A model generated the notes under the pieces. It was not told where the DNA came from. It saw only the letters and a list, made by a program, of their open reading frames with translations, and did not search any database. Below, piece by piece: positions 2,182 to 28,615 of a stretch of 64,000 bases of DNA. The DNA lies in the NCBI RefSeq assembly GCF_006547065.1, contig NZ_CP041243.1:434001-498000 (forward strand). Reading direction: 5' to 3'. Position 1 is the stretch's first letter. Each line of letters starts with the position of its first letter. This stretch comes from Brevundimonas sp. M20. GTDB taxonomy: Bacteria; Pseudomonadota; Alphaproteobacteria; Caulobacterales; Caulobacteraceae. The translations under genes were made by a program, and so were the position numbers.

Positions 2182-2555
2182 CGGCGAGGTCCGGTCAAGC
2201 AATCAATCTAAAGGTGAAAGTGACTAGGCGCAGCCTGATCGCCGGCGCGGGACGGGATATCGCGCCTCGTCACGGCCCGCGAAAGCGGTCCGGTCTGATC
2301 GCCATGACGTAAGGCCGATGTCTCCATGGGCTCGCCTCAACTCCCTGTTCTCGCGCCGGTTTTCCGGTCTGCGTGGCCTTACGCACTGACTTGTCGCCGG
2401 CTCCCGGGAGCTATGGCGAAGCGAGCGTCGCGACCGTCACACACTCAAGCATGGAAGTTGGTCTGATTACAAAAGCTATTTGACAGTCTGAATACGCAAG
2501 TTACACCTAGCACTGAAGCACCTCGGCTAAACGAGGGCTCATGGGAGGATAGGGC
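2182..2555. promoter_or_regulatory. Divergent promoter region between MFS and TonB receptor genes
   Basis: 374 bases without a convincing gene. It contains an 8-bp inverted repeat (GTAAGGCC near 2309, GGCCTTAC near 2375), a weak GACAAGTCAG match near 2385-2394 on the reverse strand, and a clear copy of the island's shared 20-bp element at 2485-2504. A TTGACA hexamer at 2480-2485 abuts that element. The region probably drives both the transporter-ligase unit and the receptor. Confidence 0.6.
2485..2504 (+). promoter_or_regulatory. Shared island element, copy 1 (before TonB receptor 1)
   Basis: Reads AGTCTGAATACGCAAGTTAC, ending 51 bases before the GTG start of the receptor. It matches the RRTCYN5YGCAAGTNAS form seen at 19874, 20843, 24380 and 28596, and overlaps a TTGACA-like -35. 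Operator role is inferred. Confidence 0.6.
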
Positions 2556-4889
2556 GTGACCATTCGAGGTTCGATCAGCGTATCCGCATTGCTTCTGGCG
2601 GCTTCTCTCGGCGCGACGCCGGTGTGGGCCCAGACGGCACCGCAAACACCGCCGCAAGACAACGCGACCCAGCTGGACGAGGTGATCGTCACCGCGACCA
2701 AGCGGGAAGAGCGGCTCATTGACGTCCCGGTCGCCGTGACGGCCATCGGGTCGGAACAGCTCCAGAATTCGGGCGTGTCCGACATTCGTGAGCTGACGGG
2801 CCTGGCGCCCAGCGTCCAGTTCCAGACCCCGGGTGGCGGCGCCGACTCGTCGATCCGCATCCGTGGCATCGGCACCACCTCCACCAACCCAGGGCTCGAG
2901 TCCTCGGTCGGCGTGGTGATCGACGGCGTGACCCGCGCCCGCACCGGCGTGGCCCTGTCCGAGCTGGGTGATCTTCAACGTATCGAAGTCCTGCGCGGCC
3001 CGCAGGGCACCCTGTTCGGCCGTAACACCTCGTCGGGTCTGATCAACGTCGTCACCCGTGACCCGAGTTTCGCCGGCGTCGAGGGACGGCTGGAAGGCAC
3101 CTACGGCAACTACTCGGACATGCGTCTGGCCGGGGCCATCAACATTCCGCTGTCGGACAACGCCGCCTTCCGTCTGGAAGCCAGTTCCGAGACCCGCGAC
3201 GGCTTCTACCAGGACGCCAACAGCGCCGAGACCCTGGACAATCTGGATCGCCAGTTCGTCCGCGCCAAACTGCGTTGGGAGCCGAGCGACACACTGACGT
3301 GGCGCTTCAGCGCCGACTACACCAACCGTGATGAGAACTGCTGCGTGGCCGTTCTCGCCATCGCCGGCCCGACCTATGGTCTGGTCAACACCTTGGCGGG
3401 CGCGCGTGGCGACGTGGGCTACACCAGCACCGACCCGTTCGACCGCGAGGCCTCCAAGTCCAGCGGTCGCCAGAACCAGGAAGACATCGTCGACTGGGGC
3501 GTTTCGGCCCAGGCCGACTGGGAGCTTGGTTTCGGCACCCTGACCTCGATCACGGCGTATCGCAGCTGGGAAGCCTATCGCTCGCAGGACTTTGATCACT
3601 CGGGCGCTGACCTGGGCTTCTTCGCCCCGGACGGCCTGCACCAGAGTTTTGACGTCTTCACCCAGGAAGTCCGCCTGCAAGGCACGGCGGGCATGGTCGA
3701 CTGGCTGGTCGGCGCCTACTACTCGGACGAGGACGTGATGAACGACTCCGCGTACCGGATGGGCGCGGACTACCCGCTGATCTACGGCGGCGCCGCAACC
3801 TTCCAGGCGACGACCCTGGCGGCCTTTACCCCGGGCGACGGCGCCCGTGGCATCGGCAACCAGAACGGCCGCGACATGTCGGTCTTCACCCACAACATCT
3901 TCAACATCACCGACCAGCTGAGCATCACGGCGGGTCTGCGCTACACCAACAACAAGAAGTCGATCGATTTCAGGGGCGAGAACTTCAACCCGGCGTGCGA
4001 CAGCGCCGTGGCGACGGGGGATGCGCCGGGGATCACCCGCTTCTGCGCCCCGTTCTGGGATACCCGCTTCAACACGGCCGGAGACTCGGACTCGCGAACC
4101 GAGGATGCCGTCACCGGCACCTTCAACGTGTCGTATGAGTTCCTGCCGACCCTGACGAGCTACCTCTCGTACTCGCGCGGATACAAGTCGGGCGGCTACA
4201 ACTTCGACCGGGCCGGCTTCACCACTCCGGCCACGCCGAACGCCGCTGATCTGGCCTTCTCGGACGAGACGGTGGACGCCTATGAGTTCGGTCTGAAGGG
4301 CGAGTTCTTCGACCGCACCCTGACGGCCAATCTCGCGATCTTCCATCAGAAGTTCTCGGGCTTCCAGCTGATCGAGTACACGGGCGTCAACTTCGTGGTT
4401 CGCAGCCTCGAGGAAGCGATCTCGGAGGGCGCGGAGCTGGAGATCACCTGGCGTCCGATGCCGGGCCTGACCCTGACCAACGGCCTCAGCTACACCGACG
4501 CCTACTATCCGACGAGCGCCGGCAACTCGGCCTACTCGGGTCGGGAGATGGAGCAGTCGCCGGACTGGGTGAACGTCACCTCGGTCACCTATGAGTTCCC
4601 GATCGGCGAGCAGCTGACCGGCGTGGCCTATATCGACAACCGTTACAGCTCCGAGTTCTACACCGGCGGCTTCGATCCGAACCGGATCCAGCCCTCGTTC
4701 TCGGTCGCCAACGCCCGCCTCTCCCTGCGGGGACCGGACGAGACCTGGGCGGTCGACATCTGGGCGCGGAACCTGTTCGACAAGGACTACTATCGCCGCG
4801 TGATCCCGGCCACGTTCCAGGCCGGATCCTACTCGGCCTTCCTCGGCGACCCCCGTACCTACGGGATCACCCTGCGGCGCACCTTCTGA
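2556..4889 (+). CDS. TonB-dependent receptor 1
   Basis: 777 residues from a GTG start preceded by GGGAGGA at 2543-2549. A signal peptide ends at VWAQ (about residue 26), followed by a TonB-box-like segment (DEVIVTATKREE), a plug domain (residues about 45-160, with VLRGPQGTLFGRN) and a 22-strand barrel ending in aromatic RRTF, as expected for an outer-membrane receptor. This is the generic receptor type expanded in Caulobacterales and sphingomonads; no siderophore genes lie nearby, so an organic catabolic substrate is more likely than iron. The upstream region carries the island's shared 20-bp element. Confidence 0.93.
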   Translation: MTIRGSISVSALLLAASLGATPVWAQTAPQTPPQDNATQLDEVIVTATKREERLIDVPVAVTAIGSEQLQNSGVSDIRELTGLAPSVQFQTPGGGADSSIRIRGIGTTSTNPGLESSVGVVIDGVTRARTGVALSELGDLQRIEVLRGPQGTLFGRNTSSGLINVVTRDPSFAGVEGRLEGTYGNYSDMRLAGAINIPLSDNAAFRLEASSETRDGFYQDANSAETLDNLDRQFVRAKLRWEPSDTLTWRFSADYTNRDENCCVAVLAIAGPTYGLVNTLAGARGDVGYTSTDPFDREASKSSGRQNQEDIVDWGVSAQADWELGFGTLTSITAYRSWEAYRSQDFDHSGADLGFFAPDGLHQSFDVFTQEVRLQGTAGMVDWLVGAYYSDEDVMNDSAYRMGADYPLIYGGAATFQATTLAAFTPGDGARGIGNQNGRDMSVFTHNIFNITDQLSITAGLRYTNNKKSIDFRGENFNPACDSAVATGDAPGITRFCAPFWDTRFNTAGDSDSRTEDAVTGTFNVSYEFLPTLTSYLSYSRGYKSGGYNFDRAGFTTPATPNAADLAFSDETVDAYEFGLKGEFFDRTLTANLAIFHQKFSGFQLIEYTGVNFVVRSLEEAISEGAELEITWRPMPGLTLTNGLSYTDAYYPTSAGNSAYSGREMEQSPDWVNVTSVTYEFPIGEQLTGVAYIDNRYSSEFYTGGFDPNRIQPSFSVANARLSLRGPDETWAVDIWARNLFDKDYYRRVIPATFQAGSYSAFLGDPRTYGITLRRTF

Positions 4890-4916
4890 CGGACGCTGCG
4901 TTTTCCTGAACCTTGG

Positions 4917-4955
4917 GGCCCCGGCGCGATCCTGACGCCGGGGCCTTCTTCTTGT
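4917..4955 (+). terminator. Intrinsic terminator of TonB receptor 1
   Basis: A perfect 10-bp stem (GGCCCCGGCG at 4917-4926, CGCCGGGGCC at 4936-4945) with a 9-base loop, followed by TTCTTCTTGTC. It lies 28 bases after the receptor stop. Confidence 0.75.
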
Positions 4956-4970
4956 CTGTTGCAAAGAAGC

Positions 4971-5121
4971 CCTCCCAATCGACGGGGGAGGGCTGGTTGG
5001 GGGTGAGTTCAGGCTGTTTGAGGCGGTGCGGGGGAGGTGGTGTCAGCGCCTTGTGCGCCACGCTTTCAAGACCTGGCGCCCACCCCCATCCCCGGCCCTT
5101 CCCCGTCGAGGGGGAAGGGAG
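4971..5121. repeat. Composite palindromic repeat (REPIN-like), type A
   Basis: Two GC-rich imperfect palindromes face each other: CCTCCCAATCGACGGGGGAG at 4971-4990 with its G-rich tail, and CACCCCCATCCCCGG to GGGGAAGGGAG at 5081-5121. About 74 bases lie between them. The whole unit of about 151 bp recurs, in the opposite orientation, inside the E2 gene at 60005-60158. Here it sits between convergent genes. Confidence 0.75.
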
Positions 5122-5131
5122 AGGGTTTTGG

Positions 5132-6319: not shown

Positions 6320-6354
6320 CGATAATCCTCCCGTTTCGCGCCGTGTTCGGCGTC

Positions 6355-6416
6355 GCTTTCGATTTGATACTAAAAGCCCTCGCCAAGGACGACAAGAATG
6401 GTATTCTAACGAAAGC
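6355..6416. promoter_or_regulatory. Inverted repeat in the acyl-CoA dehydrogenase / carotenoid oxygenase 1 promoter region
   Basis: GCTTTCGATTTGATACT at 6355-6371 and the reverse complement of 6400-6416 (GCTTTCGTTAGAATACC) match at 12 of 17 positions, separated by 28 bases. The stretch is AT-rich against its surroundings and lies between two divergent genes, as an operator or paired promoters would. The island's 20-bp element is absent here, so this unit may be controlled differently. Confidence 0.5.
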
Positions 6417-6453
6417 CACTATTTCCGGGCCTCTGGTCCGCAAGGAGTTTTCG

Positions 6454-7968
6454 ATGGGTTTCGAACCGACCGGCGCCGCGCGTGATGTCCAGCTGGGCAA
6501 GGTCTCGCAGGAGCCGTTCAAGGTCACGCTGAAGCCGAACGAGCATCCCTACATGACCGGCGCCTGGACGCCGCAGCATGAGGAGTTCACGGCCGAGGAC
6601 ATGCCGGTGATCGGGACCATCCCGACCGACATCGACGGCGTCTATGTGCGCAACACCGAGAACCCGGTGCATGAGCCGATCGGCCGTTATCACCCGTTCG
6701 ACGGTGACGGCATGATCCACACGATCAGCTTCCGGGACGGCAAGGCCGCCTATCGCAACCGTTTCGTCCGCACCAAGGGCTTCCTGGCGGAGCAGGCGGC
6801 GGGGCATGCGATCTGGGCCGGACTGGCCGAGCATCCGTCGTTGTCGCAACAGCCGGGCTGGGGCGCGCACGGCGGGCTGAAGGATTCGTCCTCGACGGAT
6901 GTGATCGTCCACGCGGGGGCCATCCTGTCGACCTTCTACCAGTGCGGTGAGGGCTATCGCCTCGACCCCTACACCATGGAGCAGCTGGAGAGCGCCGATT
7001 GGGTCCCACCGGAAGGGATTTCGGCCCACCCGAAGGTCGATGAGAAGACCGGCGACCTGCTGTTCTTCAACTACTCCAAGGCCGCGCCGCACATGCATTA
7101 TGGTGTGGTCGGGCCGGACAACAGGCTGAAGCATTTCACGCCGATCCCGCTGCCGGGCGCGCGCCTGCCGCACGACATGGCGTTCACGACCAATTATTCG
7201 ATCCTGAATGACTTCCCGCTGTTCTGGGAAGAAGACCTGCTGCCCAAAGGCATCCATGCGGCGCGCTTCCATCCGGAGATGAAGTCGCGGTTCGGGATCA
7301 TTCCGCGCTACGGCAAGGCCGAGGATGTGCGCTGGTTCGAGGCCGATGCGACCTACGTCCTGCACTTCCTCAATGCATGGGAGGAGGGCGACGAGATCGT
7401 CATGGACGGCTACTTCCAGGACAACCCGGTGCCCCAGACCAGCCCGGACGCTTGGCCGGGGCATGAGCGGATCATGACCTTCCTCGACCAGAACATGCTC
7501 CAGCCCAAGCTGCACCGCTGGCGCTTCAACCTGAAGACCGGCGAGACGACCGAGCAGCGGCTGGATGATCGGGTGCTGGAGTTCGGCATCATCAACAACC
7601 AGTACGGCGGGGTGAAGTACCGCTACGCCTACAGCGCCGTGTCCAAGCCCGGCTGGTTCCTGTTCACAGGTCTGGTCAAGCACGACATGGATACGGGCGA
7701 GAGCTGGGCCGTCGACTTCGGCCCGGAACGCTACGGCTCCGAGCCCGGGTTCGCCCCGCGCATCGGCGCGACGAGCGAGGATGACGGCTATCTGATCACC
7801 TATGTCACAGACATGATCGAGAACCGGTCGGAATGCGTGATCTATGATGCGCAGAAGCCCGGCGACGGGCCGGTGGCGCGGATCATCCTGCCGGGCCGTC
7901 TGTCCAGCGGCACCCACGCCACCTGGGCGCAGGGCGAAACCATCCGCGCCTCGCAGGCGGCGGCGTAA
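6454..7968 (+). CDS. Carotenoid oxygenase / lignostilbene dioxygenase family protein 1
   Basis: 504 residues from ATG 6454, chosen over the in-frame ATG at 6343 because AAGGAG sits 6 bases upstream. This family uses an Fe(II) held by four His to cleave an alkene into two carbonyl products. Candidate ligands are His153 (STDVIVHAG), His192 (ISAHPKVD), His240 (LPHDMAFT) and His488 (GTHATW); the family strings RYHPFDGDGMIH and YRNRFVRT are present. Members act on stilbenes, phenylpropenes or (apo)carotenoids, and substrate cannot be told from sequence. The SCP2-type thiolase starts 12 bases after its stop, suggesting one transcript. Confidence 0.88.
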   Translation: MGFEPTGAARDVQLGKVSQEPFKVTLKPNEHPYMTGAWTPQHEEFTAEDMPVIGTIPTDIDGVYVRNTENPVHEPIGRYHPFDGDGMIHTISFRDGKAAYRNRFVRTKGFLAEQAAGHAIWAGLAEHPSLSQQPGWGAHGGLKDSSSTDVIVHAGAILSTFYQCGEGYRLDPYTMEQLESADWVPPEGISAHPKVDEKTGDLLFFNYSKAAPHMHYGVVGPDNRLKHFTPIPLPGARLPHDMAFTTNYSILNDFPLFWEEDLLPKGIHAARFHPEMKSRFGIIPRYGKAEDVRWFEADATYVLHFLNAWEEGDEIVMDGYFQDNPVPQTSPDAWPGHERIMTFLDQNMLQPKLHRWRFNLKTGETTEQRLDDRVLEFGIINNQYGGVKYRYAYSAVSKPGWFLFTGLVKHDMDTGESWAVDFGPERYGSEPGFAPRIGATSEDDGYLITYVTDMIENRSECVIYDAQKPGDGPVARIILPGRLSSGTHATWAQGETIRASQAAA

Positions 7969-7980
7969 GGGACAGGACAA

Positions 7981-9198: not shown

Positions 9199-9247
9199 GT
9201 CCGGCGGGCGGATAGACGTCGGAGACGGTGGAGACGCGTGAAATACA

Positions 9248-9283
9248 CCGTCTATGCCGTCTATCCCGTCTATGTCGTCTACG
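9248..9283. repeat. 9-base tandem repeat, four copies
   Basis: CCGTCTATG, CCGTCTATC, CCGTCTATG, TCGTCTACG run head to tail just after thiolase A. The upstream GGATAGACG can pair with them, so a transcript could fold here. Function unknown. Confidence 0.6.
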
Positions 9284-9361
9284 CGGTCTGCCGATCCCAA
9301 ACCCTGTAGTGGCGGGCATTTGAACGATTCAGGGCGTTGGACGGTCCGTAATATCATCCGG

Positions 9362-18351: not shown

Positions 18352-18362
18352 ACTTTTGTCCT

Positions 18363-19832
18363 TCAGGCGACGATCTGGTCGCCGGGCGCCCATGTGCCGT
18401 GGAAGCCGGCGGGGACGCGGGCGGGCAGGGGGATGCGGGCGACGGGGCCGGCCTCAAAGTCCTTGGCCGCGATGACCTGGACCTCGGACTGGCCGGTGGC
18501 CTCGTCGGTGGTGAAGACGATGACGTAGCCGTCGTCCTCATCGACCGCGCCGATGCGGGGGGCGAAGGCGGGCTCGGAGCCGCCGACGCCGAGGGCGAAG
18601 TCATGCGTCTTCGCCGCGCCGGTATTGAGGTCATACTTGATCAGGCCCGAGAAGCGCTGAAGCTCCTGCGGGGCCATGGCGACGTGATAGGACCAGTTGG
18701 CCTTGCGGCCGGTGTAGTCGAGATTGACGACCGGGAACTCGCCGACGCGGTCGTCGAGCTGGCGCTTCTTCACCTGGCCGGTGACCATGTTCATCCGCCA
18801 CTCGACCGGCACGGCGTTCAGGGCCAGCACGTTCACCATCGAGGCATAGGGGCCGTAAGCCGGGTTTGGCGGGAAGCCGTTCGGCGTCATCATGCAGGCG
18901 GTCATGACCACCTCGTCGCCGTCCTCCCAGCAGTTGGCGACGTGATAGATGTAGCAGGTGTCGGTCTCGAACCAGCGGACCTGATCGCCTGTCCCGGTCT
19001 TCGGCACGACGCCGAAGCGAGCGGGCTGGTCGGCGACCTTGATCTGCCACATCGCGTTGCGCAGCCCGGCGTCGGTGAATACCACGGGCAGGTCGTGCAG
19101 GATGATGTAGTTCTCGGTCAGCCCCATGTCGTGCGGCAGGCGCGGTCCGGGCAGATCGACCTTCTGGAAATTCGTCAGCTGATTGTCGGCGCTGACGACG
19201 CCGAAGCTCATCCACGGCTCGTAGAGCGAATAGTCGAAGAAGCAGAACTCGCCCGTCTTCGGATCGACCTTGCCGTGGGCCGAGACGTGGCGCGGCAGGG
19301 CGCCGCCGAAGGTCTCGTTGCCGATGGTTTCCAGCGTGCGGGCGTTCACCCGCACCGGCTTGCCCGAGATGTACCACAGGGCCATCAGCGAACCGTTGTG
19401 GAAGACCAGATCGGTGTTGGCGGTGTCCTTGTAGACGAGGTCGCCGCGACCCGAGGCCGGGTTGCTCCGGGCCGAGGGGGCCAGGACGCCGCCCGCCTGG
19501 ATAGCGAAGCCGGCCTGTTCGGCGCGATAGTCGTCCGTGCCGACGTAGCGGTTGCGGTACTCGGCCTTGCCGTTCTCGAAGTGGATGGCGTGAACCATGC
19601 CGTCGCCGTCGAACCAGTGGTGCAGGCCCGCGGGAGCCTGGGCCGGGTTTGGGCCGTTGCGGACGAAGGCGCCGTACAGATCCTTCGGAAGCTCGCCGAT
19701 GACGGGCAGGTCGAGCGCCGTCGTCTCCTTCGCCACGGGCTCATAGAGGCCCTGCAGATAGGGGTTCATCTCGTTCAAAGGGGTCAGTTCGCCGGTCTCG
19801 ATCCGGCGCGACGCGGCGGCGTCATCGGCCAT
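18363..19832 (-). CDS. Carotenoid oxygenase / lignostilbene dioxygenase family protein 2
   Basis: 490 residues from ATG 19832, with AAGGAG 8 bases upstream. Candidate Fe(II) ligands are His145 (TANTDLVFHNG), His186 (VSAHGKVDPKTG), His234 (LPHDMGLTENY) and His479 (GFHGTW). It is closer than protein 1 to the standard bacterial lignostilbene/stilbene dioxygenase wording (HHWFDGDGMVH, EYRNRYVGT). It probably cleaves a C=C bond of the pathway substrate to two aldehydes or ketones; the PaaN-type dehydrogenase is two genes downstream. A copy of the island's 20-bp element lies 41 bases before its start. Confidence 0.9.
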   Translation of the reverse strand: MADDAAASRRIETGELTPLNEMNPYLQGLYEPVAKETTALDLPVIGELPKDLYGAFVRNGPNPAQAPAGLHHWFDGDGMVHAIHFENGKAEYRNRYVGTDDYRAEQAGFAIQAGGVLAPSARSNPASGRGDLVYKDTANTDLVFHNGSLMALWYISGKPVRVNARTLETIGNETFGGALPRHVSAHGKVDPKTGEFCFFDYSLYEPWMSFGVVSADNQLTNFQKVDLPGPRLPHDMGLTENYIILHDLPVVFTDAGLRNAMWQIKVADQPARFGVVPKTGTGDQVRWFETDTCYIYHVANCWEDGDEVVMTACMMTPNGFPPNPAYGPYASMVNVLALNAVPVEWRMNMVTGQVKKRQLDDRVGEFPVVNLDYTGRKANWSYHVAMAPQELQRFSGLIKYDLNTGAAKTHDFALGVGGSEPAFAPRIGAVDEDDGYVIVFTTDEATGQSEVQVIAAKDFEAGPVARIPLPARVPAGFHGTWAPGDQIVA

Positions 19833-19873
19833 GGTGCGGCTCCTTGGGTCTTGAATTGCAATCTGCCGAAATC

Positions 19874-19893
19874 GGTCCATCTCTGCAAGTTAC
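19874..19893 (-). promoter_or_regulatory. Shared island element, copy 2 (before carotenoid oxygenase 2)
   Basis: Plus strand reads GGTCCATCTCTGCAAGTTAC, 17 of 20 identical to copy 3. It overlaps the last codon and stop of the upstream SDR, so the long operon below can be controlled separately from that gene. Orientation relative to its gene is opposite to copies 1 and 4. Confidence 0.6.
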
Positions 19894-20804
19894 TGCAGTC
19901 GAACAGCGGTCGCGGGGCGGGCTTTCAGGAAGGCTTCGAAAGCCTGATTCCCGTCCGTCGGCAGGGTCCAGTCCTCCAGTGACATCAACGGCCCCATGGC
20001 GGCGGTGAGGTCGTCCGGGGACACCTCGCCGGGCGGCTGGAACTGGACGCCGGGGCCCTCGATCCGCACCGCGCGACGCACCTTTCCGGCGCCCGCGACG
20101 AGGGTTTCGCCGTTCAGCGGACAGGCCTCGCTCATCAGCCAGCTGACGACGGGAGCGACGTATTCGGGCGGCATGGCCGAGCCGACCTCGTCGGTGACAT
20201 AGGCCTCGGTCATCCCGGTCAGGGCGTAGGGGGCGACGGCGTTGGCGTGGACGCCCTTTGCGGCCCCTTCCAGCGCGATCACCCGCATCAGACCGATCAG
20301 CGCGGCCTTGGACGACGAATAGGCCGCCATGCCGTGGACCCCGTGCAGGCCCGCCGCCGACGTGGTGATGACGATCCGCCCGGCGCCCTGATCGCGCATG
20401 CGCCGGTAGATCGGCAGGGTGGCGCTGACGGTGCCGAAATAGTTGATGTCGAAGACCGCGCGCAGCTCGGCCAGCGTCTGCTTGTGCAGGCTCTTCGCCT
20501 CGGGCGCGCCGGCGTTGTTCACCAGCCCGTCGATGCGGCCAAAGGCGGTCAGGGCGGCGTCCAGCAGGCGGTCGCCCGCGTCGTCCTGCTCCACCGCCAG
20601 CGGGCAGGCGACGGCCTCGCCGCCCATCTCCCGGATGCGCTCGACCACAGCCTCGGCCGAGGCCGGCTGGCCCGACGCGCGGGGACGGGTGTTGACCACC
20701 ACCTTCGCGCCCCTGGACGCCAGATCCAGCGCATAGGCCAACCCCAGACCACGCCCCGCGCCCGTGACCACGATGACCCGATCTTTCAATGACCGTTGTT
20801 CCAT
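19890..20804 (-). CDS. SDR family dehydrogenase, peroxisomal hydroxyacyl-CoA dehydrogenase-like
   Basis: 304 residues from ATG 20804 with GGGAGA upstream. Rossmann motif TGAGRGLGLAYAL (TGxxxGxG), NNAGAPE and the catalytic Ser/YSSSKAAL triad are intact, with a C-terminal extension of about 60 residues beyond a minimal SDR. The wording resembles the 17beta-HSD4/MFE-2 dehydrogenase domain, which oxidises (3R)-hydroxyacyl-CoA with NAD. It would fit between a hydratase (not visible in the window) and the thiolases. It is divergent from TonB receptor 2, and its promoter has two ACTTGC half-sites besides the shared element. Confidence 0.88.
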   Translation of the reverse strand: MEQRSLKDRVIVVTGAGRGLGLAYALDLASRGAKVVVNTRPRASGQPASAEAVVERIREMGGEAVACPLAVEQDDAGDRLLDAALTAFGRIDGLVNNAGAPEAKSLHKQTLAELRAVFDINYFGTVSATLPIYRRMRDQGAGRIVITTSAAGLHGVHGMAAYSSSKAALIGLMRVIALEGAAKGVHANAVAPYALTGMTEAYVTDEVGSAMPPEYVAPVVSWLMSEACPLNGETLVAGAGKVRRAVRIEGPGVQFQPPGEVSPDDLTAAMGPLMSLEDWTLPTDGNQAFEAFLKARPATAVRLQ

Positions 20805-20816
20805 CGGCTTCTCCCT

Positions 20817-20862
20817 ACTTGCGTAAAAAGACTTGCAAACTTGGTCCATTGGCGCAAGTTAC
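20817..20862. promoter_or_regulatory. Shared island element, copy 3, with extra half-sites (SDR / TonB receptor 2)
   Basis: The 20-mer at 20843-20862 is GGTCCATTGGCGCAAGTTAC. Two further ACTTGC half-sites lie at 20817-20822 and 20831-20836, inverted to the GCAAGT at 20854-20859. The 31-base spacing of the outer pair nearly equals the 32 bases in front of the MerR gene. The cluster lies between divergent starts at 20804 and 20920 and could control both. Confidence 0.6.
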
Positions 20863-20919
20863 TATTCCTGTCGAGCTTCCGATCAACGAGAAGCCGCTGC
20901 CCTGGGGAGGGAAACGCCA

Positions 20920-23124
20920 ATGAAATCAGTCCACGCCACCACTGCGTCCGTCGTCGCCCTGCTGATGGGCGCCGCGCTGGCCACGCCCGCGCTCGCGCAA
21001 CAGGCCCCGCAGGATGAACCCGGCGCCACCGCGCTGGAGGATGTGGTCGTGACCGCGCAGCGGCGCGAGCAGAGCCTGCAGGAGGTGCCGATCGCCATCA
21101 CCGCCTTCGACGCCGAGACGCTGGAGCGCACGGCGGCGACGGGTATCTCGGACATCGCGGCCAAGGCGCCGGGCGTGACCCTGACGCAGTTCAACATCGG
21201 CGAGCCGCAGCTCTACATCCGGGGTGTCGGCACCTCGAGCGACTCGGCGGCCAGCGACCCCTCCATCGGCTTCTCGATTGATGAAGTGTCCATCGGCCGG
21301 TCGGGCGCCAGCGCCCTGTCCTTCCTCGACATCGAGCGGGTGGAGATCCTGCGCGGGCCGCAGGGGACGCTGTACGGCCGCAACGCCTCGGGCGGGGCGC
21401 TGAATATCTACACGCGCAAGCCGGTGTTCGATAACACGGGCAATATCACCGCCCGCATCGGCAGCTTTGATGAGTACGGGCTGGAAGGCGTGATCAACCG
21501 GCAGGTCGGCGACGACGCCGCCATCCGGTTCGCCGCCCGCTACACCACCAATGACGGCTATGCCGAAAGCCTGCCCAGCGGCGACGGTCTGGAAGGCGGC
21601 ACGTCCTGGGGCGCGCGCCTGTCGTTCCGTCGTGACGCGGGCGACTGGAGCTTCCTGTTCAGCGGCGACTATTCGCAGGACGACATGGACGGCCACGCGC
21701 GGATTCCGGTGACGGCGTCCGGCACGGCCCCGGCCTTCGTGACCCTGATCAACACCCTGCGCGCCGGTCTGGATGTGCGGCAGAGCTTCTCATCGCCGGA
21801 CAATTTCCAGGAGCGGACCAACTACGGCCTGACCGCCCGGATCGAGCACTCGGGCGAGGGGTTCGACTTCGTCTCCCTGACGTCGTTCCGCGACAACGAC
21901 TACAGCTGGCGCGATAATCTGGGCGGCCTGCCCTTCCCGGCCTTCCCTCTGGAAGTCGATGACCGCGCGAGCGAGGACGCCAAGCAGTTCAGTCAGGAGT
22001 TCCGTCTGGTGTCCAAGCCGGACTCGGCGATCAACTGGGTCGCCGGCGTCTATGCCTTCCAGGAAGAGATCGAGCGTACCGAGCGCTTCATCGTGCGCGC
22101 GGCCCTGCCGATCGCGCCGCCGTCGTTCGGTGGCGACACCACCTTCTTCCAGGAGGCGACCAACCGCAGCTTCGCGGTCTTCGGTCAGGCCAACATCCCG
22201 TTCGCGAACATCTGGGAGCTGACGCTGGGCGCCCGCTGGACGCATGACTATCGCGAGATCCATCAGGTCGCGATCGACAACGACGGTGGCGCCAATCCGC
22301 CGGTCGGCATTCCGCTGGGGCCGACGGGCTCGCCCTACAATGTGCGGGGCGACGAAAGCTTCTCGGAGCCGAGCTGGAAGATCGCGCTGGCGGTCGAGCC
22401 GATCGACAACGTCCGCTTCTATGCAAGCTATGACCGCGGCTACAAGGCGGGGTCCTTCCCGTCGACGGCGCAGTCGGGCGCGCAGGCGCTGATGCCGTTG
22501 GCGTCGGAGCTGCTGGACAACTACGAACTGGGCGTGAAGTCGACCCTGTTCGGGCGCTGGCGCTTCAACGCGGCCGCCTTCAAGCTCGAGTATCAGGACC
22601 TGCAGGTCTACGAACTACTGGGTCTGGCGCTGGTCACCTCCAATGCGCAGGCCGAGGTCGAGGGCTTCGAGATCGAGACCGCGCTGGCGATCACGAACAA
22701 CATCACCATCGGCGGATCGTACACCAGCCTTGACGCGCAGTTCACCTCGAACGCCATCTCGGGCGCGCTGGTCCTGCCTTACGACGGCAATACCCTGCCG
22801 CGTTCGCCGGACAGCCAGTACACCCTGTATGTCGACAGCGAGTGGGACGTGGCCGGCGGCGTTCTGGCGGCGCGCGCCGACTACCAGTGGACCGACGACT
22901 TCTACTTCGACCCGTCGAACAATCCGGAAGTTCTGTCGCCCGCGCACGAACTCGTCAGCGCCTTCGTGTCGTGGGAAGCGCCCTCGGGCCTGAAGGTCTC
23001 GCTGTACGGGAAGAACCTGACGGACACCGAGTATCAGACCCACATCATCAAGAATGTGGGCGTCGGCTTCAGCGTCTTCGGCGCGCCGCGGTCGTTCGGC
23101 CTGGCCGTCACGCAGAGCTTCTGA
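20920..23124 (+). CDS. TonB-dependent receptor 2
   Basis: 734 residues from ATG 20920 with GGGAGGGA at 20904-20911; the in-frame ATG at 20833 is upstream of the promoter element and rejected. The signal peptide ends at PALAQQ, followed by a TonB-box-like LEDVVVTAQRREQ, a plug with VEILRGPQGTLYGRNASGG, and a barrel ending in LAVTQSF with terminal Phe. It is a paralogue of receptor 1. Its start is 116 bases from the divergent SDR, and both probably answer to the same regulator, giving uptake and catabolism together. Confidence 0.93.
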   Translation: MKSVHATTASVVALLMGAALATPALAQQAPQDEPGATALEDVVVTAQRREQSLQEVPIAITAFDAETLERTAATGISDIAAKAPGVTLTQFNIGEPQLYIRGVGTSSDSAASDPSIGFSIDEVSIGRSGASALSFLDIERVEILRGPQGTLYGRNASGGALNIYTRKPVFDNTGNITARIGSFDEYGLEGVINRQVGDDAAIRFAARYTTNDGYAESLPSGDGLEGGTSWGARLSFRRDAGDWSFLFSGDYSQDDMDGHARIPVTASGTAPAFVTLINTLRAGLDVRQSFSSPDNFQERTNYGLTARIEHSGEGFDFVSLTSFRDNDYSWRDNLGGLPFPAFPLEVDDRASEDAKQFSQEFRLVSKPDSAINWVAGVYAFQEEIERTERFIVRAALPIAPPSFGGDTTFFQEATNRSFAVFGQANIPFANIWELTLGARWTHDYREIHQVAIDNDGGANPPVGIPLGPTGSPYNVRGDESFSEPSWKIALAVEPIDNVRFYASYDRGYKAGSFPSTAQSGAQALMPLASELLDNYELGVKSTLFGRWRFNAAAFKLEYQDLQVYELLGLALVTSNAQAEVEGFEIETALAITNNITIGGSYTSLDAQFTSNAISGALVLPYDGNTLPRSPDSQYTLYVDSEWDVAGGVLAARADYQWTDDFYFDPSNNPEVLSPAHELVSAFVSWEAPSGLKVSLYGKNLTDTEYQTHIIKNVGVGFSVFGAPRSFGLAVTQSF

Positions 23125-23137
23125 CGAATAAAGAGGA

Positions 23138-24133
23138 TCAGGCGGCGCCGGTGGTTTCCGGCGCCGTCGCCTCGACCTCCCAGCGGATGTTTCGCGGGTC
23201 CAGCAAGCGGCCGGTCTTGAGGTCGCAGACGACCGGATGAATCGCCTCTCCGGTGCGGGTGTCGACCAGTTTCAGCGGCGGCCCGTCCGGGCACAGCCAG
23301 CGTTCGGCCCAACCGTGCATGGCCATGATCATCGGGAACAGGTCCAGTCCGGCCTGCGTCAGCCGGTACTCGAAGCGCGGCGGCGCATTCTGGTAGAGCC
23401 GCTTTTCGAGCACGCCGTGCAGCACCATCCGGTTCAGACGGTCGGCCAGGATGTTGGTCGCCACGCCCAACGCCTCGTGGAACTCATCGAACCGGCGCAG
23501 TCGGAAGAAGGCGGCGGCCAGCACCGCCCAACTCCAGTAGTCGCCCATGATGTCGGTCGAGCGGTCGATGATCGCCCGGTCCGTCTCGATCGGCTGGGTG
23601 CGGCGACGGCGGGAGGTCGGCGGCGCGATCGGCGTCAGACCCTCGCCCGCCTCGCCCCGGACATAGCGGGGATCGACCGGATGGCCGCGCTCATGATCGA
23701 AGATGGCGGGGGTGACGGCCTCGCCGGTGTGGCGATCATAGAAGGCGAGGGCGTAGCGTTCCTGCAGCGGGGAACGCGCCCATTTGCGTTCCCACTGACC
23801 CTGCATGACCGCGACCCCGAACATGTCGAGACCCATCTCGGTCAACCGGTATTCCATCCGGGTCGGGGACTCCTTCGCCGGGCGCTGCTCCAGCAGCCCC
23901 GAGGCGACCAGACGGTTCAGCCGGTCCGTCAGCACGCTGCGCGGCATGCCCAGTCGGTCGCGCCACTGGGAGAAACGGCGCGCCCCGTAGAAGGCTTCAC
24001 GCAGGATGAGTTGCGTCCACGCATCCCCTGTCACCGCGAACGCGCGCGCGACGGGATTGCCCATGATCAGATCGCGGGTGGAGATGTGGTCCACGAGCCC
24101 TCGTTTCAGTCCTGCCCCGGACTGTTCTGGCAT
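23138..24133 (-). CDS. Tandem-duplicated HxlR-family transcription regulator
   Basis: 331 residues with two complete HxlR winged-helix domains, about residues 26-120 and 190-283. Each has the wording GDAW/GDYWSW, RRF..W/EF, ILxDRLNRxVxxGxLEKR and YRLTxxGLDxF. Each is followed by a similar short segment (RHTGEAVTPAIFDHERGHPVDPRYV; DTRTGEAIHPVVCDLKTGRLLDP), where single-domain relatives often have a Cys-rich end. Ordinary HxlR proteins have one domain and dimerise, so this one may bind DNA as an internal pseudo-dimer. The start is uncertain: ATG 24133 has no clear ribosome site, and GTG 24094 has GAGGG close by. Confidence 0.85.
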   Translation of the reverse strand: MPEQSGAGLKRGLVDHISTRDLIMGNPVARAFAVTGDAWTQLILREAFYGARRFSQWRDRLGMPRSVLTDRLNRLVASGLLEQRPAKESPTRMEYRLTEMGLDMFGVAVMQGQWERKWARSPLQERYALAFYDRHTGEAVTPAIFDHERGHPVDPRYVRGEAGEGLTPIAPPTSRRRRTQPIETDRAIIDRSTDIMGDYWSWAVLAAAFFRLRRFDEFHEALGVATNILADRLNRMVLHGVLEKRLYQNAPPRFEYRLTQAGLDLFPMIMAMHGWAERWLCPDGPPLKLVDTRTGEAIHPVVCDLKTGRLLDPRNIRWEVEATAPETTGAA

Positions 24134-24220
24134 AAATTGCACTGTGCCGGGAGCCGCCGTGCATAGCGGCGCTCTCCCTGTCTGGGCTGCGTTTTGCTGC
24201 GCCGCAAGACACAATTGGGA

Positions 24221-24251
24221 AGCCCCCGCCATTGGGGGGATGGCGGGGGCT
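24221..24251. repeat. Perfect 12-bp hairpin
   Basis: AGCCCCCGCCAT at 24221-24232 pairs fully with 24240-24251 across a TGGGGGG loop. There is no T-run, and no gene ends here, so it is more likely a palindromic repeat than a terminator. Confidence 0.65.
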
Positions 24252-24328
24252 CGACGGTCACGCGGTCAGGCTGCGGGGGGGAACGTCGCCGACCGCTGAA
24301 CGTGCTGATCAAACGTGGGGTCGCGCCG

Positions 24329-24355
24329 GGTCCGTCGCAACGGACCGGACTTTTT
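24329..24355 (+). terminator. Terminator-like hairpin upstream of feruloyl-CoA synthase-like gene
   Basis: GGTCCGT (24329-24335), loop CGCA, ACGGACC (24340-24346), then GGAC and TTTTT. It reads on the plus strand where no annotated gene precedes it, so it would end a short unannotated transcript or act as a leader attenuator. Confidence 0.5.
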
Positions 24356-24379
24356 CGTCGCACCCTCTCCGAGGCGATA

Positions 24380-24399
24380 AATCCTGTTTTGCAAGTCAG
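24380..24399 (+). promoter_or_regulatory. Shared island element, copy 4 (before feruloyl-CoA synthase-like gene)
   Basis: AATCCTGTTTTGCAAGTCAG, the most divergent of the five copies, 57 bases before the GTG start. The GCAAGT core and the RRTCY end are kept. Confidence 0.45.
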
Positions 24400-24456
24400 T
24401 CGTCAGGGGTAGGGTGATCCCCAGATCCGGACAACCGGACGGTACGGGAGAGTGGC

Positions 24457-26265
24457 GTGCGGGATATGGTCGAGGACTTTCATCAGGCCCCCTGTCGGCC
24501 CATACGCTTCGGCGATGTCGGGCTGGAGATCGAGCGGCGCGACGACGGAACCCTGATCCTGTCGGCAAAGGCGCCGCTGGAGCCGTATGAGCAGAATCTG
24601 ATGCGCCGCTTCTGGGCGCTGGGCGAGACGCAGGGCGACAAGACCTGGATCGCGGAGAGAGACGGCGACGGCTGGAAACGCCTGACCTATGGCGCGGCCC
24701 GACGTGACGTCTCGGCGGTGGCGAATTGGCTCAGGGCGCGGGGCGTCCCGGCCAGCCGGTCGATCCTCGTCCTGTCGGGCAATACACCGACCCATGCGCT
24801 GTGGATGTTCGGGGCCATGGCGGCGGGCGTGCCGATCTGCTCGGTCAGTGTGAACTACTCGCTGCTCAGCACGGACTTCGAGCGGCTGCGTCATGTGGTC
24901 GATCTGGTGCGTCCGGCCGTGATCTTCGCCGAGACCGCGGAATTCGCCCGCGCGGCGAAGGCTATCGCGCCTGCTGACGCGGTGATCGTCAGCGCCGAGG
25001 CGGATGCCTTCCCGGCTGGGACCGTTGCGATGTCAGGGGTGCTGTCGGAACCGGACGTGGACGGGATCGGGCAGGCGGTCGAGGCGCTCGATCCGACCGC
25101 GCCCGCCCGCTACCTGCTGACCTCCGGCTCGACTGGACGACCCAAGGCCGTGATCCACACCCAGGCCATGATGACCGGCAACACGGCCAGCGGCGCGCAG
25201 GCCATGGGCGACGCCTTCGACTGGGGCGGGACCATGCTGGACTGGCTGCCGTGGAGTCATATCGCGGGCTCGTCCCTGCTGACCAACATCACCTGGCTGG
25301 GCGGGACGCTGCATATCGATGACGGTCGTCCGACCGCGACCGGCTTCGCCGCCACCCTGCGCAATCTGAAGGAGGTGCCGGTCCGCTTCTACGGCACCAT
25401 GCCCAGCGGCTACGCCATGCTGGCCGACGCGCTGGAGGCGGATGAGGAGCTGCGCCGGACCTTCTTCAGCGAACTGCGCGTCATGCTGTTCGGCGGGGCG
25501 GGCCTGCCGCAGCCTTTGCACGATCGGCTGCAACGGCTGGCGGTGGCGACGACGGGTCAGCGGTTCATGTTCGTGTCCGGCTATGGTTCGACGGAGACGG
25601 GCTCCGCCATCAGCTACACCTGGTGGGAAAGCACACGGGTGGGGATCGGGCTGCCGGTGCCGGGCGCGGCGCTGAAGCTGGTCCCGGCGGACGGCGCCTA
25701 TGAGGTGCGGGTCAAGGCGGCCAGCGTAACGCCCGGCTATCACGGCGATGAGGCGCGGACGCGGGAGGCGTTCGACGAGGAGGGCTTCCTCCGGATGGAC
25801 GACCTCGCCGACTTCCACGATCCGGATGAACCGCTGCTGGGTCTGTTTTTCGCCGGGCGTCGGGTGGAGCAGTTCAAGCTGGCCAACGGCACCTTCGTCG
25901 CGGCGGGGCGTCTGCGCACCGACCTGCTGGAGGCCCTGCCGGGGATGTTCCGGGACGTGGTCATCTGCGGCGAGGGACAGGCGGATTTGCGGGTTCTGGC
26001 CTGGGCCGACCCGGAGGCCGCGCGTCGGTTGGGCGATTGGGCGGCGGTGCAGGCCGCCGTGGCCGAGGGCCTGCGCCGCTACAACGCGACCCACACCGGC
26101 CAGAGCGAGCGGCTGGCGGGACTGCTGTTCCTCGAAACGCCGCCGGACGTCGAGGGGCATGAGGTGTCGGACAAGGGCTCGATCAACCGCGCCATGGTCC
26201 TGCGCCGCCGGGCCGGGGATGTGGCGCGGCTGTATGCGGGCGGCGAGGGCGTGATCCTGCCCTGA
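24457..26265 (+). CDS. Feruloyl-CoA synthase-like acyl-CoA synthetase
   Basis: 602 residues from a GTG start with GGGAG about 6 bases upstream; ATG 24466 is the alternative. ANL motifs are YLLTSGSTGRPKAVIHT (P-loop) and SGYGSTETGSA (A5). LDWLPWSHIAGSS and the ending DKGSINRAMVLRRR follow the feruloyl-CoA synthase branch, whose members activate hydroxycinnamates or related aryl acids. Usual RTGDL is RMDDL here, which is also common in that branch. A single-gene unit divergent from the HxlR regulator, it supports an aromatic substrate for the island, although no enoyl-CoA hydratase/vanillin-forming gene is present. Confidence 0.85.
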   Translation: MRDMVEDFHQAPCRPIRFGDVGLEIERRDDGTLILSAKAPLEPYEQNLMRRFWALGETQGDKTWIAERDGDGWKRLTYGAARRDVSAVANWLRARGVPASRSILVLSGNTPTHALWMFGAMAAGVPICSVSVNYSLLSTDFERLRHVVDLVRPAVIFAETAEFARAAKAIAPADAVIVSAEADAFPAGTVAMSGVLSEPDVDGIGQAVEALDPTAPARYLLTSGSTGRPKAVIHTQAMMTGNTASGAQAMGDAFDWGGTMLDWLPWSHIAGSSLLTNITWLGGTLHIDDGRPTATGFAATLRNLKEVPVRFYGTMPSGYAMLADALEADEELRRTFFSELRVMLFGGAGLPQPLHDRLQRLAVATTGQRFMFVSGYGSTETGSAISYTWWESTRVGIGLPVPGAALKLVPADGAYEVRVKAASVTPGYHGDEARTREAFDEEGFLRMDDLADFHDPDEPLLGLFFAGRRVEQFKLANGTFVAAGRLRTDLLEALPGMFRDVVICGEGQADLRVLAWADPEAARRLGDWAAVQAAVAEGLRRYNATHTGQSERLAGLLFLETPPDVEGHEVSDKGSINRAMVLRRRAGDVARLYAGGEGVILP

Positions 26266-26281
26266 GCGCGGGGGAGAGGGC

Positions 26282-27322
26282 TCAGGCCCCCGCCCTGACC
26301 GCCTGCGCCCACGCCAGCCGGGCCAGTTCCGGGAACTCGTCCGCGCGCTTGCGGGCCTTGGGCGAGACGGCGTTGCCTCGGATCACCCGGCCGCGGATGC
26401 CGTGGATGATGGCGGCGAAGCGGAACATGTTGAACGCCACGAAGACGTCGAGGTCGGGCAGGTCGCCACGCCCGGTCCGCTCCGCATAGGCGGCGACATA
26501 GTCGGTCTCCGCCGGGATGCCGAGCGCCTGAAGATCACGGCCCGCCAGACCGCCCAGATGCGTCGGCATCCGGTACATCATCAGATGGTAGGCGAAGTCG
26601 GCCAGCGGATGGCCGAGGGTCGACAGCTCCCAGTCGATGACCGCCGCCACCTGGGGTTGATCCGGGCGCAGGATCAGGTTGTCGATGCGGAAGTCGCCGT
26701 GGATGATCGCGGTCTCATCCGGCAGTTCGCGGGCTGCCAGCCAGTCGGCCAGCCGGTCCATGTTGTCGTCGCGCCCGGCGTCGGCGTCCTCGCGATACTG
26801 GCGGGTCCAAAGGGCGGTCTGGCGCTGGACGAAGCCGCCGCGACGGCCGTAGTCGGACAGGCCCAGCGCATCAATGTCGAGGCTGTGCAGCCGCGCCAAT
26901 GTCGCGTTCATGCCGTCGAAGGTCGCGGCGCGCTCGCCCGGATCGGCGATGTCGGTGGTCGGATCCCAGACGATCCGGCCCTCCACATGGGCCATCAGAT
27001 AGAAGGCCGTGCCGATCACCCCGGGGTCCTCGCAGACGCCGAGGATGCGGGGGACGGGGAAGCCCGCCTCGCCCAGCGCGCCCATGACCCGCGCCTCACG
27101 CAGCACGTCGTGAGCCCCCTTCAGCAACGGCCCCGGCGGCTTGCGGCGCAGGACGAAGCTGTGCTCGCCGACGGTGACGCCATAGGTCGGATTGGACTGG
27201 CCGCCCGAGAACTGGGTGATCGTCAGCGGGCCGGGCGGGACGTCCATCCGCGCCCGCATCCACGCCTCCAGCGCCGCCGCGTCCAGCTCGAACCCGGCGC
27301 GCACGCCTGCATCTTCACTCAC
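26282..27322 (-). CDS. APH-fold kinase, ACAD10/LvaA-like phosphotransferase
   Basis: 346 residues from GTG 27322, eleven bases after the SDR stop; the longer frame to 27565 overlaps that gene and is rejected. Kinase motifs are AIIHGDFRIDNLI (catalytic loop, Asp) and AAVIDWELSTLGHPLADFAYH (metal-binding DxE-like loop); the ATP-site Lys is in FVLRRKPPG. This family is the bacterial relative of the ACAD10/11 kinase domain and of LvaA, which phosphorylates 4-hydroxyacyl-CoA so the hydroxyl can be eliminated or moved. That would handle gamma-hydroxy intermediates here. Aminoglycoside resistance is unlikely in this context. Confidence 0.82.
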   Translation of the reverse strand: MSEDAGVRAGFELDAAALEAWMRARMDVPPGPLTITQFSGGQSNPTYGVTVGEHSFVLRRKPPGPLLKGAHDVLREARVMGALGEAGFPVPRILGVCEDPGVIGTAFYLMAHVEGRIVWDPTTDIADPGERAATFDGMNATLARLHSLDIDALGLSDYGRRGGFVQRQTALWTRQYREDADAGRDDNMDRLADWLAARELPDETAIIHGDFRIDNLILRPDQPQVAAVIDWELSTLGHPLADFAYHLMMYRMPTHLGGLAGRDLQALGIPAETDYVAAYAERTGRGDLPDLDVFVAFNMFRFAAIIHGIRGRVIRGNAVSPKARKRADEFPELARLAWAQAVRAGA

Positions 27323-27333
27323 GGGAACATCAC

Positions 27334-28116
27334 TCAAAGAGATTGGCCGTCGTCGATGACGAAGACCCCGCCGGTGATCGGCGCGGCGTCGTCGGAGCCC
27401 AGCAGGATCAGGGTCGGGTCCAGCCCGTCGCCCGGCATCAGGCGGCGGCGGGGGAAGCCCCTGATCTGCTTCTCGCCGCCGGGGCTGGAGAACCAGTCGG
27501 AATTCATCTCCGTCTCCAGATAGCCGGGGCAGACGGCGTTGACGTTGATCCCCTCGCGCGCCCATTCGCGCGCCAGTCCCTTGGCCAGCGACACGACCGC
27601 CGCCTTGGAGGCGCAGTAGCCGACGAGGCCCGGCAGCTGCAGCCGGGCGCCGATGGAGGCGATCAGGACGACGCGGCCGCGTCCGGCTTCCGCTGCGCCG
27701 TTCGCCCTGAACACCCGGGCCGCCTCGCGCGCGGTCAGGAAGGCGCCGCGCACATTGACGGTGAACATCTGGTCGAACTCGGCCACCGGCGCGTCGAGCG
27801 CGAGGCCCGGCAGGCCGATCCCGGCATTGGCGTAGACGGTGTGCAGCGGGCCCAGCGCCTGTTCGGCGGCGGCGATGCCGGCGATGACGCCGGCCTCGTC
27901 CACGACGTCCATCGCGACGGCGAAGGCTTCGCCGCCGTCGGCCCGGATCGCCTCGACGAGGCTGGCCAGACGGTCGGTGCGGCGGGCGGCGACGGTGACC
28001 TTCGCGCCTTCGCGCGCGGCGACGCGGGCCAGATGCTCGCCGATCCCGGACGAGGCGCCGGTGATCAGGATGTGGCGCCCCTCAAGGCGTCCGGACTGTT
28101 TGCCGTCAGCGGGCAT
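27334..28116 (-). CDS. SDR family oxidoreductase
   Basis: 260 residues, a classical SDR with TGASSGIGEHLA (cofactor glycines), ANAGIG, a catalytic Ser in LIASIGARL and YCASKAAV. NAD(P)H-dependent oxidoreduction of a hydroxyl/ketone, probably a hydroxyacyl-CoA. ATG 28116 overlaps the end of the MerR gene by 11 bases, so the regulator, this enzyme and the kinase form one operon. The pairing with an ACAD10/LvaA-like kinase hints at metabolism of 3- or 4-hydroxyacyl-CoA. Confidence 0.88.
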   Translation of the reverse strand: MPADGKQSGRLEGRHILITGASSGIGEHLARVAAREGAKVTVAARRTDRLASLVEAIRADGGEAFAVAMDVVDEAGVIAGIAAAEQALGPLHTVYANAGIGLPGLALDAPVAEFDQMFTVNVRGAFLTAREAARVFRANGAAEAGRGRVVLIASIGARLQLPGLVGYCASKAAVVSLAKGLAREWAREGINVNAVCPGYLETEMNSDWFSSPGGEKQIRGFPRRRLMPGDGLDPTLILLGSDDAAPITGGVFVIDDGQSL

Positions 28117-28555
28117 GACGCAGCCTCGCCGAACGGTCCACGGTCGCCACCGAGGCGGGAGACGTGCCGGCGCCCAGCCCTTCCAGCCCGTCGGCTTCCA
28201 GCTCGACCAGGGCGGTGCGGAGGTCCTGGATGCGGGCGGCGGCGGCGGCGATCTCGGCGTCCAGGAAGCGGGCCACGCCATCGCCGCCGTCGGTGGCGGT
28301 CAGGGCGGCGTGGATATCCGGCGTCGGCATGCCCAGACGGCGCAGGCGGGCGATCAGGGCCGCTCGCTCGCGCTGGTCCACGTCATAGCAGCGCGCGCCC
28401 GAGGGACGCCGCCCGGCGGTCAGCAGGCCGATGTCCTCATAGTGCCGCAGCGCCCGCAGGGTGGTGCCCGTGCGCGCCGCCAGCTCGCGGATGCTGATCG
28501 CCGGCCGATGCGCCGGACTGGTGGGGGCCCTGTGGTGCAACGGTACGACCGTCAT
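28106..28555 (-). CDS. MerR-family transcription regulator
   Basis: 149 residues from ATG 28555, five bases after GGAGG; upstream GTG 28570 and ATG 28558 are in frame but badly spaced. The N-terminal winged helix (ISIRELAARTGTTLRALRHYEDIGLL) is followed by RRPSGARCYD and a dimerisation helix (about 85-125). There are no metal-binding cysteines in the short C-terminus, so a small organic or CoA ligand is more likely than a metal. It leads the SDR-kinase operon, and its own promoter carries two half-sites of the island element, making it one of two candidate regulators of the regulon. Confidence 0.87.
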   Translation of the reverse strand: MTVVPLHHRAPTSPAHRPAISIRELAARTGTTLRALRHYEDIGLLTAGRRPSGARCYDVDQRERAALIARLRRLGMPTPDIHAALTATDGGDGVARFLDAEIAAAAARIQDLRTALVELEADGLEGLGAGTSPASVATVDRSARLRHAR

Positions 28556-28568
28556 CATTTCCTCCGTC

Positions 28569-28615
28569 ACTTGCGTAACCGAACCTGCCGTTATCAGTCC
28601 GTCTTTGCAAGTGAC
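28569..28615 (-). promoter_or_regulatory. Shared island element, copy 5, with half-site (before MerR gene)
   Basis: AGTCCGTCTTTGCAAGTGAC at 28596-28615 plus an inverted ACTTGCGTAAC at 28569-28579, the latter 13 bases before the MerR start. The pair has a 32-base spacer, like the 31 bases before the SDR at 20804. Position over the leader suggests autorepression. Confidence 0.6.

Follow-up and report, generated by a model that had tools for sequence, protein, structure and literature searches.

The 64,000-nucleotide stretch of Brevundimonas sp. M20 analysed here (contig NZ_CP041243.1, positions 434,001 to 498,000; hereafter the window) carries a catabolic island in which several promoters share a 20-base-pair (bp) element, RRTCYN5YGCAAGTNAS. 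This element is likely the operator of tandem HxlR regulators, which would sit as single-chain dimers on two unlike half-sites and repress catabolic genes until a metabolite releases them. The reading is supported by sequence statistics, namely the sites themselves, their link to tandem HxlR genes and the odd-centred symmetry seen upstream of single-domain relatives. From these we infer direct binding, the assignment of domains to half-sites, one chain per site, repression and the existence of an inducer.

The five exact sites listed in a preliminary description of this DNA lie where it had placed them, with zero mismatches, and the genes it had assigned to them stand; the site at 24380 belongs at the same time to the divergent region that precedes the tandem HxlR gene. 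The exact pattern occurs five times in the window against a mean of 0.01 in 100 dinucleotide-preserving shuffles, none of which reached five. Across the genome (3,315,348 bases in one contig, complete-looking), the five window sites are the sole exact matches, and a reversed-pattern control gave none. Allowing up to one mismatch yields 19 matches. Ten of them fall in a 35-kilobase (kb) segment, C1:427566-462615, whose start precedes the window by about 6 kb; the other 9 are in the rest of the genome (3.28 Mb). As the reversed control gives 26 matches at this tolerance, a one-mismatch match outside the island carries no meaning. The extra inverted ACTTGC that had been noted before the short-chain dehydrogenase (SDR) and MerR genes is present, yet it is part of near-complete inverted copies of the element at 20814-20833 and 28566-28585 (both minus strand, one mismatch each). 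The element is thus confirmed as a real sequence feature.

Sites gathered from related loci with the original pattern at up to one mismatch (83 non-redundant sites) give a consensus close to WN-RGTCTYKTTAYGCAAGTNAC, with little conservation outside it, and the N5 segment is not free. Owing to this mode of collection the fixed positions of the consensus are partly circular, which does not apply to the conservation at N5 and W. A matrix built from 75 distinct sites of relatives, with no window locus in training and with two same-genome sites from outside the window (locus L093) included, finds 11 window sites scoring 15.2 to 28.8 bits, the next best candidate reaching 9.5 bits. These comprise the five exact sites, the two inverted copies and four others, at 2205 (+), 2460 (+), 6352 (-) and 6400 (+). 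Five further matrix sites, two of them overlapping, lie to the left of the window within 20 kb (L093); in this matrix scan the sites of any one locus were counted up to 10. When the window is compared with its closest relative island (G255), conserved blocks appear at the sites of TonB receptor 1, SDR/TonB receptor 2, HxlR/acyl-coenzyme A (CoA) ligase and carotenoid oxygenase 1. Two outcomes had been regarded beforehand as contrary to an operator, a motif common throughout the genome and a lack of conservation in related islands; neither occurred, the exact pattern being restricted to the island and sites recurring in related islands. A fixed 50-bp double site was rejected on account of weak positional conservation beyond the 20-bp site and of spacing that varies elsewhere; inverted pairs at 29-30 bp do exist, both in the window and in a few Brevundimonas-type islands. 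Good copies of the motif (GGTCTTGTTATGCAAGTRAC) were also seen at L134 (G221:C3:3504417) and L135 (G077:C25:127026), with no tandem HxlR gene or strong island-protein match within 10 kb.

The predicted operator sites and the genes around them are as follows (window coordinates; ORF, open reading frame; MFS, major facilitator superfamily).

2205..2224, plus strand: putative operator site AATCTAAAGGTGAAAGTGAC in front of the gene for the MFS transporter (820-2202, minus strand); one mismatch; 15.2 bits; conserved in G255.
2460..2479, plus strand: putative degenerate operator site in the TonB receptor 1 promoter, 25 bp before the 2485 site; 19.8 bits; identical in G255, similar in L221.
2485..2504, plus strand: putative operator site in the TonB receptor 1 promoter; exact match; 28.8 bits.
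2556..4889, plus strand: TonB-dependent receptor 1 (PF00593, PF07715).
6343..7968, plus strand: carotenoid oxygenase 1, RPE65 family (PF03055); listed ORF, true start probably inside.
6352..6371, minus strand: putative degenerate operator site between the acyl-CoA dehydrogenase and carotenoid oxygenase 1 genes; 16.5 bits; counterparts in G255 and L202.
6400..6419, plus strand: putative degenerate operator site GGTATTCTAACGAAAGCCAC in the carotenoid oxygenase 1 promoter; 19.8 bits; conserved in G255.
18363..19880, minus strand: carotenoid oxygenase 2 (PF03055); listed ORF, start probably near 19833.
19874..19893, plus strand: putative operator site in the carotenoid oxygenase 2 promoter, overlapping the SDR gene end; exact match; 19.5 bits; counterpart L075:11151 in G255.
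19890..20804, minus strand: short-chain dehydrogenase 1 (PF00106); ATG start inferred.
20814..20833, minus strand: putative inverted operator site AGTCTTTTTACGCAAGTAGG adjoining the SDR start codon; one mismatch; 23.7 bits; footprint with G255.
20843..20862, plus strand: putative operator site in the divergent SDR/TonB receptor 2 promoter; exact match; 20.5 bits; footprint with G255.
20921..23124, plus strand: TonB-dependent receptor 2 (PF00593, PF07715); ATG start inferred.
23138..24094, minus strand: tandem HxlR regulator HxlR1, 318 residues, proposed binder; two PF01638 stretches; GTG start inferred from homologue lengths.
24380..24399, plus strand: putative operator site between the divergent HxlR1 and acyl-CoA ligase genes; exact match; 25.5 bits; footprint with G255.
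24457..26265, plus strand: feruloyl-CoA-synthase-like acyl-CoA ligase (PF00501); best NCBIfam match NF009232, under its cut-off.
28106..28570, minus strand: MerR-type regulator, disfavoured as binder; listed ORF (PF13411, PF00376).
28566..28585, minus strand: putative inverted operator site GGTTCGGTTACGCAAGTGAC before the MerR start; one mismatch; 20.7 bits.
28596..28615, plus strand: putative operator site in the MerR operon promoter; exact match; 26.8 bits.

Both carotenoid oxygenases score far under the cut-offs of the NCBIfam equivalogs, and a sequence comparison with the PDB gives carotenoid and lignostilbene dioxygenases as relatives of carotenoid oxygenase 1. A tRNA-Arg (ACG) gene (28744-28820, minus strand), located to the right of the last operator site at a distance of about 130 bp, may mark the right edge of the island and is a possible integration site.

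The preliminary description had offered the MerR protein and the tandem HxlR protein as candidate binders. As one genome (G163) had been taken in knowing its motif, the main count uses loci named from their proteins only: 44 tandem HxlR loci outside Caulobacteraceae, 20 loci matched over about one HxlR domain and 16 Caulobacteraceae loci. At 14 bits, 37 of the 44 tandem loci have at least one site, with 97 sites in all where the reversed matrix finds 8; the corresponding counts at 20 bits are 60 and 1. The one-domain loci have sites in only 4 of 20 cases (5 sites against 2 for the reversed matrix); L273, which is counted among them and has no site, may be tandem, its match spanning residues 21-271. 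All 16 Caulobacteraceae loci have sites, but these are close to the training set of the matrix, and in a separate sample of alphaproteobacterial genomes a site is present at all six tandem loci fetched. Sites do not require a carotenoid oxygenase nearby, being found in 20 of the 22 tandem loci (of the 44) that lack such a match, and 15 of the 44 have a site no more than 350 bp ahead of the tandem gene itself. In 299 genomes of the family there are 61 exact motif matches outside the M20 genome and 90 tandem HxlR places, nucleotide regions having been examined for part of the latter; 26 of the 61 have a listed tandem HxlR gene no more than 25 kb away, which by our estimate would hold for about 0.4% of bases.

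A MerR protein as the binder would fit the two sites that precede the MerR gene. MerR operators have their dyad within a 19-20-bp promoter spacer, and some sites do fall, in our reading, between plausible -35 and -10 regions, a place typical for such operators. The related loci speak otherwise, as sites are common among the 80 examined and among the 44 tandem HxlR loci, whereas a MerR homologue was found in none (tblastn at 1e-6 and 1e-5, respectively, reaching at most about 10-30 kb around the tandem gene). The sites thus track tandem HxlR loci, with a MerR homologue in none of those examined, so the tandem HxlR is the regulator that goes along with the motif. Of the two earlier candidates, the tandem HxlR is therefore strongly favoured and MerR is rejected on gene co-occurrence, its role as binder being highly improbable; HxlR1 is the probable binder, as judged from these loci.

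The element could also be a core promoter motif rather than an operator, for the reverse-strand TTGC can be read as a -35 box with a downstream TAGGTT-like -10 box in many relatives (our reading). We consider this the least probable of the alternatives and rejected it, because the orientation of the element relative to the genes varies and the exact motif is confined to the island; its presence, moreover, follows the tandem HxlR gene.

The earlier proposal of one regulon for uptake, cleavage and CoA steps holds for the operator, which is restricted to the island in its exact form and recurs in relatives. That one operator is common to the TonB receptor, carotenoid oxygenase, SDR and acyl-CoA ligase genes is well supported by the sequence comparisons. 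The idea of a single regulon has to be qualified, however, by a paralogue. HxlR2, a second tandem HxlR about 35% identical to HxlR1, is encoded just left of the window (G000:C1:432270-433244, in L093), with operator-like sites nearby; its recognition helices read ARSTL and ASNIL, and its gene adjoins the MFS/TonB receptor 1 module. It is possible, if on balance doubtful, that HxlR2 is the main regulator of some or all sites, especially those at the MFS/TonB receptor 1 and carotenoid oxygenase 1 promoters. Besides its position, this would agree with L221, where the module has an HxlR2-type gene alone beside it and similar sites are kept. In L202, on the other hand, the same module has an HxlR1-type gene alone beside it, also with sites, and in the window the HxlR1 gene sits amid the remaining sites.

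The tandem HxlR operator is likely a 21-bp pseudo-palindrome that extends from 2 bp before the listed site to its base 19. Its half-sites are unlike: one is RGTCTY, and the other, taken on the opposite strand, is GTNACTTGC. A symmetric operator was not found, since 134 non-redundant sites have RGTCT facing ACTTGC, and the position pairs 2/16, 4/14 and 5/13 are complementary in fractions of 0.00, 0.13 and 0.22. Single-domain HxlR genes behave differently. In 65 distinct regions upstream of such genes, palindromes with 8 of 9 arm positions matching occur at odd gaps in 7-16 regions against 1.2-2.3 expected from Markov shuffles, whereas at even gaps they occur in 1-4 regions against 1.4-2.2 expected, which is no enrichment; with 7 of 9 positions, odd gaps give 35-39 against 15-19 expected. 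Examples are TCAGTTGCATTTTGCAACTGA (L261), TCGGTTCCGTTTCGGAACCGA (L262) and TTGGTTGCTGCGAGCAACCCA (L265). Beside the five single-domain HxlR genes of the M20 genome, nothing clear was seen by eye; upstream of one of the five, a genus-wide alignment (L154-L183) has a conserved TTGGCAACCCTCTTGCCAA-like palindrome, unlike the motif, which is a candidate autoregulatory site of that protein. Operator symmetry thus appears to be a trait of the single-domain members rather than of the whole family. Placing the axis at base 9 gives the tandem operator the odd-centred layout of the single-domain palindromes, with halves that differ at bases 2, 4 and 5. This axis was chosen because AGT and GCAA then align with those palindromes, and because AGT is then about as far from the centre as in the DNA crystallised with Bacillus subtilis HxlR (PMC7835342).

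The recognition helices suggest how the two halves could be divided between the domains. In HxlR1 they read MPRSVLTDRL in domain 1 and VATNILADRL in domain 2, and among the tandem proteins the domain 2 helix is xA[T/P/S]NIL while the domain 1 helix is mostly [P/A]R[S/A/Q/G]xL. Of the 65 single-domain genes, 8 encode a domain-2-like [PT][NA] helix, and 7 of these are preceded by ACTTGC, compared with 3 of the other 57. Tandem loci with N at position 4 of the domain 2 helix have sites in 36 of 39 cases, as against 1 of 5 without it (our reading of the helix listing). Domain 2 having been matched to ACTTGC, RGTCT is the assignment that remains for domain 1; two single-domain genes with an RRVL helix, which have CGTCT...AGACG palindromes, point thinly in the same direction. 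A tandem HxlR would then be a single-chain pseudo-dimer whose domain 1 reads RGTCT and whose domain 2 reads GCAAGTNA. Helix type and half-site type seem to be paired in single-domain proteins as well (L280, L290, L260, L262 and others), RHVL going with GGTTC or AGTTC, RNVL with GGTTGC, KKVL with GGTTTC and RRVL with CGTCT. Four actinobacterial tandem proteins (L235, L239, L251 and L253) are without both helix signatures, and no site was found at their loci; their genes adjoin carotenoid oxygenase homologues, as if the pairing had been kept and the operator changed.

HxlR1 itself is a member of the HxlR-like winged helix-turn-helix family, with PF01638 matching in two stretches (E=6e-37) and the profile finding two places within its gene in the genome scan. 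The AlphaFold2 model has two confidently packed domains (predicted local distance difference test 90.4, predicted template modelling score 0.88). Foldseek matches it to PA1607, YodB, HypR and HxlR, and its best PDB relatives each match one domain. Its only cysteines are residues 268 and 290 of 318; as the N-terminal sensing cysteine described for the family in the available portion of PMC7835342 is absent, redox sensing is unlikely. We propose that one HxlR1 chain covers one 21-bp site with its two winged-helix domains, acting as a single-chain dimer. It would most likely repress the transport, cleavage and CoA-activation genes of the island, a role that suits the placement of the sites, which face either way close to promoters and start codons. 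A pathway metabolite may release it, a guess from the catabolic context.

A different arrangement on the same DNA is conceivable, in which two tandem chains dimerise in the usual HxlR way with one domain per chain at each site, and overlap with the promoter imposes the asymmetry. The inverted pairs in the window, whose starts are 29 or 30 bp apart (20814/20843 and 28566/28596), would suit such an arrangement. Many sites are solitary, however, and the spacing of the unlike halves is constant in Alpha- and Gammaproteobacteria alike; nor can promoter overlap account for sites that face both ways relative to the genes. Two chains per site are thus unlikely.

Several observations weigh against the single-chain operator reading or its parts. 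The internal symmetry of the element leaves the dyad axis ambiguous, axis 11 scoring 0.40 and axis 9 only 0.35. No single-domain HxlR with an RS[VL]L helix was found in the single-domain set, which weakens the assignment of domain 1, as does the RA, RQ or RG present in that helix at many of the tandem loci that bear the motif. The Fisher test on the [PT][NA] counts (p = 1.3e-6) is only descriptive, because this helix class was defined after the upstream data had been seen. As for co-occurrence, 35 of the 61 exact matches in the family are not near a listed tandem HxlR gene; some of these (L138, L139 and L143) lie on contig pieces with island genes and without the HxlR gene, while others, such as those in G221 and G077, have neither within 10 kb. 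Scattered exact matches can be chance, since matches to the reversed control are frequent in the 299 genomes too (their counts were not summed). In G481, whose tandem HxlR is the closest of the six alphaproteobacterial ones (58% identity), the genome has no exact motif and the 20 kb examined have one matrix site. Finally, HxlR2 could bind the same sites, so that the two paralogues may share or divide the operators.

If the single-chain reading is right, many uncharacterised catabolic loci in which carotenoid-oxygenase-like enzymes, thiolases, acyl-CoA ligases and TonB receptors come together would gain a binder, an operator and a regulon. The tandem proteins would then also be an example from nature of a dimeric regulator fused into one chain, its operator thereby freed from symmetry, and the single-domain relatives would serve as built-in controls for the code between helix and half-site. 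No paper on natural tandem HxlR proteins or their operator was found in the open-access literature, most subscription journals lying outside the search. HxlR regulators and their palindromes are known, as is, from the accessible part of PMC9283540, a monomeric two-domain phage repressor on an asymmetric site. With moderate confidence, we regard tandem HxlR proteins as a widespread natural family, heterodimer-like in a single chain and free of palindromic recognition, in which two diverged winged helices each read a half-site of their own, the asymmetric operator AGTCT-N6-GCAAGTNA is conserved in Alpha- and Gammaproteobacteria alike, and a few residues of the recognition helices (R-S/A/Q/G versus T/P/S-N) form a readable code shared with single-domain members. 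Operators of unstudied HxlR regulators could therefore be predictable from sequence.

The best-characterised comparison is B. subtilis HxlR, crystallised on the palindrome CAGTATCCTCGAGGATACTG with the half-site AGTATCC (PDB 7bzd, 7bze and 7bzg; PMC7835342, available portion). It shares with the tandem proteins the HxlR/DUF24 winged helix and an AGT-containing half-site, AGTATCC resembling the AGTCTCG of the operator, and with the axis at base 9 the AGT of each is set about equally far from the centre. Unlike them, it is described there as a single-domain homodimer on a perfect, even-centred palindrome, and as a formaldehyde-sensing activator that needs Cys11 and Lys13. Single-domain proteins of the PA1607/PA1374 type (2f2e and 4gcv) are the closest solved structures to either HxlR1 domain, but they have one domain per chain and symmetric candidate operators, with odd-centred palindromes upstream. 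The redox-sensing DUF24 proteins YodB and HypR have the same fold as HxlR1 by sequence and structure, whereas HxlR1 is without the N-terminal sensing cysteine that PMC7835342, as far as accessible, gives for the family. Two HxlR domains per chain also occur in FAsor, an engineered HxlR-cpYFP-HxlR protein, which differs, according to the same portion of PMC7835342, in being an artificial formaldehyde sensor with identical domains. In architecture, the nearest parallel is the immunity repressor of mycobacteriophage TipsytheTRex, which likewise places two DNA-binding domains of a single chain on an asymmetric site, although with another pair of folds and within a phage repressor/stoperator system (PMC9283540, in part).

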